Program-made: the position numbers and the translations under genes
In this document: piece by piece, positions 33,366 to 34,132 of the stretch
How positions within the stretch are numbered: the stretch's first letter is position 1
How the letters are laid out: every line of letters begins with the position of its first letter
Notes under the pieces: model-generated
What the model was told of the DNA's origin: nothing
Databases searched by the model: none
The model's input: only the letters and a program-made list of their open reading frames with translations
Assembly (NCBI GenBank): GCA_023244935.1
Contig: JAHFLJ010000008.1
Span: forward strand, 1 to 36,447
Source of the DNA: Candidatus Liptonbacteria bacterium
Lineage (GTDB): Bacteria > Patescibacteriota > Minisyncoccia > UBA6257 > 2-01-FULL-56-20
Direction: 5' to 3'
Length of the DNA stretch: 36,447 nt

Positions 33366-33510
33366 ACTGCCTCCGTTTTCAAAGTTATTTACTGATTAAA
33401 ATACTAGCCACTTATCTATTCAATGTCAAAATAAAAATTCCCTCACACATAAATATATTAGAAATTTTTTTCTCGGTTTCGTGCACCGCCAAATCCCATT
33501 TGGCGCGAAA

Positions 33511-33586
33511 GTGGGGTCGGGAGAAAAGTTCAAGGTTTCTCCCGTGTAGGAATGAGCGAAGCGGATTCAAAACCGTGGGTTTTGAA
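33511..33586 (+). repeat. Two-hairpin GGGTC repeat, copy 2
   Basis: Plus GGGGTC-GGGAGAAA-agttcaagg-TTTCTCCC-GTGTAGGAatgagcgaagcgga-TTCAAAACC-gtg-GGTTTTGAA. Confidence 0.85.
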
Positions 33587-33667
33587 GTGCACAACCAAAA
33601 GACGCCCGCTAGGGCGTAGTTATTTTTGGTTGTGCACCCACAAGGGAATCTCACGTCGCTTCGCTCT

Positions 33668-33729
33668 TTCAGAACCCACGGTTCTGAATCATCTCCTCCA
33701 CGGGGAACCGAGCGCGGTTCCCCGACCCC
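33668..33729 (-). repeat. Two-hairpin GGGTC repeat, copy 3, inverted relative to copy 2
   Basis: Minus GGGGTC-GGGGAACCG-cgct-CGGTTCCCC-GTGGAGGAgatga-TTCAGAACC-gtg-GGTTCTGAA. Confidence 0.85.
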
Positions 33730-33737
33730 CTCCACTT

Positions 33738-33816
33738 GTTCGATCCCTTGTGCATGAACTAAAAAACCTCCGCAATGGAGATTTTTTAGTTCATGTGCAC
33801 CCACAAGGGATCGAAC
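33738..33816 (-). terminator. tRNA-Lys 3' terminator palindrome including an inverted copy of the tRNA 3' end
   Basis: Plus GTTCGATCCCTTGTGCATGAACTAAAAAACCTCC...GGAGATTTTTTAGTTCATGTGCACCCACAAGGGATCGAAC. Confidence 0.85.
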
Positions 33817-34037
33817 CTTGGACCTTATCCTTACAGCCGGCAGCCTCCGAGAAAATGAATAGTGGAGTGATTAGGTGCACCCACAAGGGATCGAACCTTG
33901 GACCTTATCCTTAAGAGGGATCTGCTCTACCAGCTGAGCTATGGGTGCATTAGTCCACTATTCATTTTTAAGGGGCGAACCGGCTGGCAAAACTTGTTCT
34001 GCAGAGGGATCTGCTCTACCAGCTGAGCTATGGGTGC
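33796..34037 (-). other. Split outer tRNA-Lys: 5' half (nt 1-35) at 34003-34037 and 3' half (nt 36-73) at 33796-33833, separated by a 169-nt insert holding the intact tRNA-Lys
   Basis: Both halves are identical to the corresponding parts of the inner tRNA and join with no gap or overlap in the anticodon. Confidence 0.85.
33876..33948 (-). tRNA. tRNA-Lys (CTT), complete 73-nt body, CCA not encoded (CCT follows)
   Basis: Minus GCACCCATAGCTCAGCTGGTAGAGCAGATCCCTCTTAAGGATAAGGTCCAAGGTTCGATCCCTTGTGGGTGCA; loop CTCTTAA. Confidence 0.93.
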
Positions 34038-34132
34038 ATATTTAGAACGATTATCATTATGCCATAATTTTTAAAAAATTAAAGAGGTAATTTTCATTAC
34101 CGAATTTATTCAATTTATGGTAAAATATGCGC

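Follow-up and report, generated by a model that had tools for sequence, protein, structure and literature searches.

A complete tRNA-Lys gene nested in the anticodon of a split tRNA-Lys in Patescibacteria and its relation to a dispersed palindromic two-hairpin element

RPE, REP/BIME, ERIC and MITEs are short palindromic non-coding sequences (about 60-110 nt) that lie as dispersed copies in small genomes and within other genes. tRNA genes are also broken by integrative elements, in which the inserted DNA restores function, an integrase is involved and one hybrid tRNA is formed at the junction. RPE have been described as genome-infesting palindromes of Rickettsia (PMC5799277). Group I introns of bacterial tRNAs are located in the anticodon region, and split tRNAs are found in archaea, the break being at 37/38 in Nanoarchaeum (PMC4090602). 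Our search of open-licence papers gave no nested tRNA-in-tRNA gene like those reported here, and no account of the element associated with them.

The present study concerns a stretch of 36,447 nt from Candidatus Liptonbacteria, called the window; its genome is denoted G000, the other G-numbers denote compared genomes, and the suffixes -A and -B indicate two tRNA-Lys loci of one genome. Direct reading of the minus strand at 33796-34037 gave the order outer 5′ half, linker L1, complete tRNA-Lys(CTT), linker L2 and outer 3′ half, with the following features:

34003..34037, minus strand: 5′ half of the outer tRNA-Lys, nt 1-35, last base U35, same as nt 1-35 of the inner tRNA
33949-34002, minus strand: linker L1, 54 nt (direct read)
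33987..34002, minus strand: hairpin H of the element, GCAGAACAAGTTTTGC, at the start of L1 and abutting the insertion boundary (direct read)
33980..33986, minus strand: 5′ strand of P2, CAGCCGG, pairing with 33834-33840; P2 covaries across copies
33970..33979, minus strand: 5′ side of the conserved internal loop, TTCGCCCCTT, family consensus TTCGCTCG.. (alignment A1)
33954..33969, minus strand: 5′ strand of P3, (A)AAAATGAATAGTGGA (direct read, inverted-repeat search, fold)
33876..33948, minus strand: inner complete tRNA-Lys(CTT) (ARAGORN; Rfam RF00005, 66.2 bits)
33834-33875, minus strand: linker L2, 42 nt (direct read)
33852..33866, minus strand: 3′ strand of P3, TCCACTATTCATTTT (direct read, inverted-repeat search, fold)
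33841..33851, minus strand: 3′ side of the conserved internal loop, CTCGGAGGCTG, family consensus ..CTCGCTG (alignment A1)
33834..33840, minus strand: 3′ strand of P2, CCGGCTG, then TAA (direct read)
33796..33833, minus strand: 3′ half of the outer tRNA-Lys, nt 36-73, 38 nt, beginning UAAGG, same as nt 36-73 of the inner tRNA
33753..33795, minus strand: palindrome with terminator-like hairpin just 3′ of the outer 3′ half, 19-nt arms, 95% complementary

The joined outer halves agree with the inner tRNA throughout (73/73), with 0 nt lost or duplicated, and the CUU anticodon is interrupted after U35 and before U36. The insert has 169 nt, of which 96 nt are non-tRNA. L1 and L2 form an imperfect inverted repeat around the inner tRNA (38-nt arms, 74% complementary), in which inverted-repeat search recovered both the perfect 15-bp AAAATGAATAGTGGA arm and CAGCCGG/CCGGCTG. 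On all these points, i.e. the nested anatomy with exactly complementary outer halves, the break at CU^U and the pairing of the linkers, our results agree with the preliminary description of the locus. Folding of the 242-nt RNA gave -98.7 kcal/mol (z = -5.3 vs shuffles). The inner tRNA was the only one called at the locus by ARAGORN and Rfam, and no Rfam family besides tRNA scored above gathering at the nest or at 11 related loci; in practice, tRNA annotation here gives the inner gene only and overlooks the nest. At the terminator-like site (33753..33795), the terminator search made calls on the plus strand only. Downstream of the nest, the region 33560-33790 has several palindromes and tRNA-Lys 3′-end fragments in both orientations (33631-33647 and 33738-33752); these form part of a repeat that is dispersed, further copies being found on contigs 3, 7, 13, 25 and 27, and may be what is left of an older nest layer.

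Like group I introns, the insert lies in the anticodon region and is exact; in the window its boundaries read U (5′) and G (3′), but the 3′ base varies among relatives. Unlike them, it has no core and only 96 nt of non-tRNA sequence, antisense copies exist, and the outer tRNA is often broken. As in archaeal split tRNA genes, the halves are flanked by complementary sequence and the break is at or near the anticodon loop, whereas here a complete second tRNA stands between the halves, RtcB is missing and the outer copy decays in relatives. The locus shares with tRNA-targeting integrative elements an insertion that disrupts a tRNA gene and supplies the function, but here a whole tRNA occupies the middle of the insert and both old halves are left outside.

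The interruption at 35/36, which the preliminary description proposed to look for in related Patescibacteria, recurs there in the same layout and at the same base. Among 100 relatives searched, there were full-length matches in each of which ARAGORN again called a single tRNA; they read as nests, the tRNA-Lys sequence being particular to each, and include G074 (two layers), G008, G005 (two loci) and G009. Altogether, nests or their remains were found at tRNA-Lys in 15 of the 38 genomes of the family (G000, G003, G005, G008, G009, G011, G013, G015, G020, G024, G028, G029, G034, G037 and G026, the last with its nest in the D-loop), and in G074 and G241 of other families. Both tRNA-Lys genes are nested in G000, G005, G008 and G029, and about 35 other family tRNA-Lys loci that were fetched are plain. 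Patterns made from L1 and L2 each matched in 8/244 order genomes, and the reversed-pattern control gave 0 matches in the 244 genomes; chance is excluded by this control together with the recurrence of the layout at the same base. The match of G122 to the L2 pattern was set aside, since it lacks a tRNA and resembles coding sequence. When 380 genomes sampled from the phylum were searched, the linker patterns gave a nest in G000 only, and the second match (G423) reads as an uninterrupted tRNA. Exact L1-pattern matches were found in 21 stretches among 85,462 species; seven are nested, all from Patescibacteria or MAGs of the group, and in the remaining 14 no tRNA was called by ARAGORN. The carriers of nests include Candidatus Liptonbacteria, Candidatus Harrisonbacteria and other Paceibacterota MAGs.

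The insertion is exact, between U35 and U36 and with no target duplication, in G000, G005-B, G003 and G015. The tRNA-Lys(CTT) adjacent to recG is nested in G000, G008 and G074 and plain in G001, G003, G004, G017, G018, G021, G023, G031, G052 and G053. G001 has the tRNA nearest to that of the window (70/73) yet is plain, and G074 belongs to another family, which also contains the plain G052. These mixed states at the recG orthologue point to separate events, which is the simplest reading of the nests there. The tRNA-Lys(TTT) locus has neighbours common to G000, G003, G009, G013 and G020, including a downstream gene which we take to resemble secD. A second kind of nest, present in two families, was seen in G026 (L264/L145) and G241 (L220), where a complete tRNA-Lys lies in the D-loop of an outer tRNA-Lys and is flanked by plain inverted repeats.

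Genome G000 is rated 100% complete and has 39 complete tRNAs. Besides the gene in the window it has a tRNA-Lys (TTT, contig 10) that also lies in a nest, the outer copy of which is degenerate, and no third tRNA-Lys was found in G000 by similarity or among the 30 ARAGORN-typed tRNA loci of the 39. Since the two inner copies are the only complete tRNA-Lys genes found in this genome, they should be the working ones, and we infer that the inner tRNA-Lys is the gene in use and the outer one a relic. The outer copy is broken, lacks U36 or is partly lost in G008, G074, G005-A, G003, G009, G011, G020, G028, G029 and G000-B, with U36 absent in G008 and G074. At the TTT locus most outer copies are old: those of G009, G020 and G000 are degenerate, and foreign sequence interrupts the T-arm of that in G003. 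G028 belongs to the genus of G009 and retains just a remnant of L2 and the terminal bases of the outer 3′ half, so the outer copy is dispensable at that locus. Remains of at least one older layer are found outside the current one in G008, such older layers being seen at G008-B. The outer copy is intact in the window (73/73, with U36) and likewise in G005-B, and in the window it may conceivably work as well. In G013, G009 and G024 the outer copy differs from the inner one but keeps 7/7 acceptor pairs, which could reflect selection on the outer copy or merely its recent origin.

In G009, G011, G013 and G024 the inner and outer copies are of different tRNA-Lys types, the inner ones nearest to plain TTAGCTC..GTCG types and the outer ones nearest to ATAGCTC..GTCC types. 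Inner tRNA and host outer tRNA agree with each other in G000-A, G005-B, G008 and G074. The 3′ flank of the inner copy resembles that of the outer copy in G008 and G037, and this likeness beyond the tRNA suggests that in some cases a resident gene was captured.

L1 and L2 correspond to the 5′ and 3′ sides of an element which is dispersed in the class Paceibacteria, with the architecture H; then P2 - UUCGCUC - P3 ... P3′ - CGCUG - P2′. In an alignment of the linkers with the tRNA omitted (A1), P2 and P3 covary, with 39 double-changed cells vs a shuffled mean of 11.1 and at most 7 in slid controls, and the internal loop is conserved as UUCGCUC (5′ side) and CGCUG (3′ side). With a covariance model (R1), at least about 95 tRNA-less matches were found in at least 40/244 order genomes, and matches in at least 45/384 class genomes; about 90 tRNA-less copies were collected. 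These counts are lower bounds, because mostly nested cases went into R1, E-values from it are approximate and scoring covered the top candidates of each genome. Hairpin H stands directly before P2 in 76% of 78 flanked copies vs 3.6% of shuffles. In 500 pairs, the arms of H had 9 G-U and 6 mismatches, and those of P2 gave 548 Watson-Crick, 17 G-U and 51 mismatched pairs. The stem sequences vary from copy to copy around the conserved loop, and the scarcity of G-U in such varying stems suggests that arm pairing is kept up at the DNA level. In 46/88 copies TAA or TAG follows on the 3′ side, and one subgroup has CCG instead. Many copies within one genome differ in H and P2, thus most copies are not fresh copies of one another. 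Tandem arrangements were also seen, with three copies of the element at a 78-nt spacing in L205 (G154:C1:258380-258597).

In L264 (G026) and L220 (G241), the anticodon loop of the outer tRNA-Lys harbours a tRNA-less copy in antisense orientation, at the site T^TAAGAG on the opposite strand, minus one T in G241; the D-loop of this same outer gene holds the complete tRNA-Lys described above. The element is dispersed, multicopy, palindromic and non-coding, which is what defines interspersed palindromic repeats. As for mobility, it is scattered in its presence at orthologous tRNA loci, with no enzyme linked and no move observed. Like RPE, REP/BIME, ERIC and MITEs, its copies are short, dispersed non-coding palindromes that occur inside other genes. 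Unlike in those families, the loop alone is conserved and the stems are not, a complete tRNA gene can occupy the apex, and nests of several layers form in one tRNA; in contrast to REP/RAYT, the element has no RAYT/Y1 link. The element resembles the small interspersed palindromes in dispersal, and its relation to any named family is one of resemblance.

Based on these data, we consider it probable that the nests arise by a DNA-level palindromic insertion carrying tRNA-Lys, in which the inner copy works, the outer one is a relic and recombination deepens the nests. The palindromic two-hairpin element would sit at T^TA(A/G)-like sites, among them the TTAA within the anticodon loop of tRNA-Lys. 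With a complete tRNA-Lys at the apex of the long hairpin, the cell would retain a usable tRNA despite the split gene. The inner tRNA is presumably transcribed together with the outer halves and released by RNase P and 3′ processing, and the outer halves would decay unless recombination with the inner copy keeps them identical. Nests may deepen when homology of the tRNA halves lets a whole nest replace the inner tRNA, as suggested by G074. In the double nest of this genome, the two copies of L1 are identical at 56/56 positions, those of L2 at 45/47, and U36 is lost at both levels; this common loss speaks for recombination and against fresh insertion, because insertion at T^TAA would keep UAAGG at the new level, and exchange of the inner tRNA for a whole nest would account for it in a single step. 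The same exchange could keep the inner copy equal to the outer one, as seen in the window. Among the candidates listed in the preliminary description, an inverted-repeat-driven duplication comes nearest to this evidence, but the phenomenon is much wider than was suggested there.

A further step would be that the tRNA-Lys-bearing hairpin is itself mobile, and targets, breaks and replaces tRNA-Lys genes, thereby regenerating its own target. We regard this as a tentative idea; it is a sub-hypothesis of the palindromic insertion and compatible with it. The mismatch of inner and outer types in G009, G011, G013 and G024 leaves room for a travelling cargo tRNA, and the double nest of G074 and the older-layer remains in G008-B fit as well. 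However, foreign cargo is unnecessary in G000-A, G005-B, G008 and G074, where the inner copy equals the host's outer one, the loss of U36 at both levels of G074 points to recombination, and neither an enzyme nor a viral carrier was found. It is in this sense that we propose, with considerable reserve, a new kind of selfish DNA, a palindrome with tRNA-Lys cargo that inserts in tRNA-Lys anticodons. If true, the element would persist by supplying the essential gene that its insertion destroys, and would bring its own next target, building onion-like nests over time.

Searches for an enzyme or a carrier gave the following results. The Y1 transposase (PF01797) is found in 5/38 family genomes and is absent from G000, G008, G011 and G028, which all bear copies, and a link was rejected on account of its rarity in the family and this absence. 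Reverse transcriptase (PF00078) is found in 23/38 family genomes; it was also rejected, as it is absent from the nested G003, G011 and G020 and that of G000 looks DGR-type. This gene of G000 lies on C3 (L310, 1897-2961), which also has a 134-nt repeat pair at 863-996 and 1446-1579 with 20/23 differences at template A, and the locus is likely a diversity-generating retroelement. A phage carrier was rejected on eight viral matches to the L1 pattern, none with a tRNA.

A purely mutational origin, by template switching at tRNA hairpins and capture of tRNA fragments, with the products retained from the need for one whole tRNA-Lys, seems to us doubtful, though several features are in line with it. 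Template switching is reported both to generate and to maintain hairpins (PMC8794818), and arms that are almost wholly Watson-Crick, as seen here, are of the kind that it can make or maintain. The D-loop nests of G026 and G241 are plain inverted repeats without the conserved loop, and inner and outer 3′ flanks are alike in G008 and G037. On the other hand, the UUCGCUC / CGCUG loop with its TAR flank recurs class-wide in about 90 copies, which exceeds what random switching would produce.

The preliminary description also considered an intron-like insertion. In such a case, a new ribozyme or enzyme would take the insert out of the outer pre-tRNA, so that each transcript would yield two tRNA-Lys, and the insert would spread by reverse splicing. 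The exact insertion between U35 and U36 in G000, G005-B, G003 and G015, the conserved internal loop with covarying helices, and outer halves that are intact in the window and still paired in G013 would be expected of an intron. Nevertheless, we find this improbable. There was no match to Intron_gpI (RF00028) with E up to 10 in 33500-34130, as anticipated by the preliminary description, which saw no group I core, and none at gathering score in 11 related loci. RtcB ligase (PF01139) is absent from G000 (control genomes were positive in 9/14). The antisense tRNA-less copies at the same site (G026, G241) cannot be a sense intron, and many copies are intergenic. Moreover, most relatives have an outer tRNA that has degenerated or lost U36 (the latter in G008 and G074), and very few G-U pairs occur in the stems. 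The 5′ exon U and the insert-end G, which the preliminary description compared with group I boundaries, are present in the window; before AAGG, the insert ends in C in G074 and in A in G037, and the U that closes the 5′ half is simply the tRNA's own base at this position. An assembly artefact, finally, to which metagenome assemblies and repeats of 35-40 nt might give rise, is highly implausible, as the layout recurs at one and the same base in separate assemblies, whose tRNA sequences differ, and the reported order of the pieces appears to be the sole one that uses each junction once.

Returning to the palindromic insertion, an essential gene would reside within what is left of a former copy of itself, repeatedly and in layers. 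This bears on how tRNA genes gain interruptions, on why palindromic DNA is drawn to tRNA-gene loops, and on the tolerance of insertions in minimal genomes with one gene per tRNA.

Hairpin copies were also observed beside other tRNA genes, just upstream of tRNA-Gly (L194, G125), a tRNA-Asp-like gene (L197, G121), tRNA-Met (L204, G130) and tRNA-Ile (L258, G145). At these four loci, P2′ is made by or lies beside the acceptor strand, and a start fragment of the same tRNA is located upstream; in G125 (L194) there are two tandem hairpin units. In G000 itself, C14:14949-15181 (L304, about 1200-1580) has a second copy of tRNA-Glu, with about 11 nt missing at its 5′ end, which follows a complete tRNA-Glu(TTC) and hairpins.
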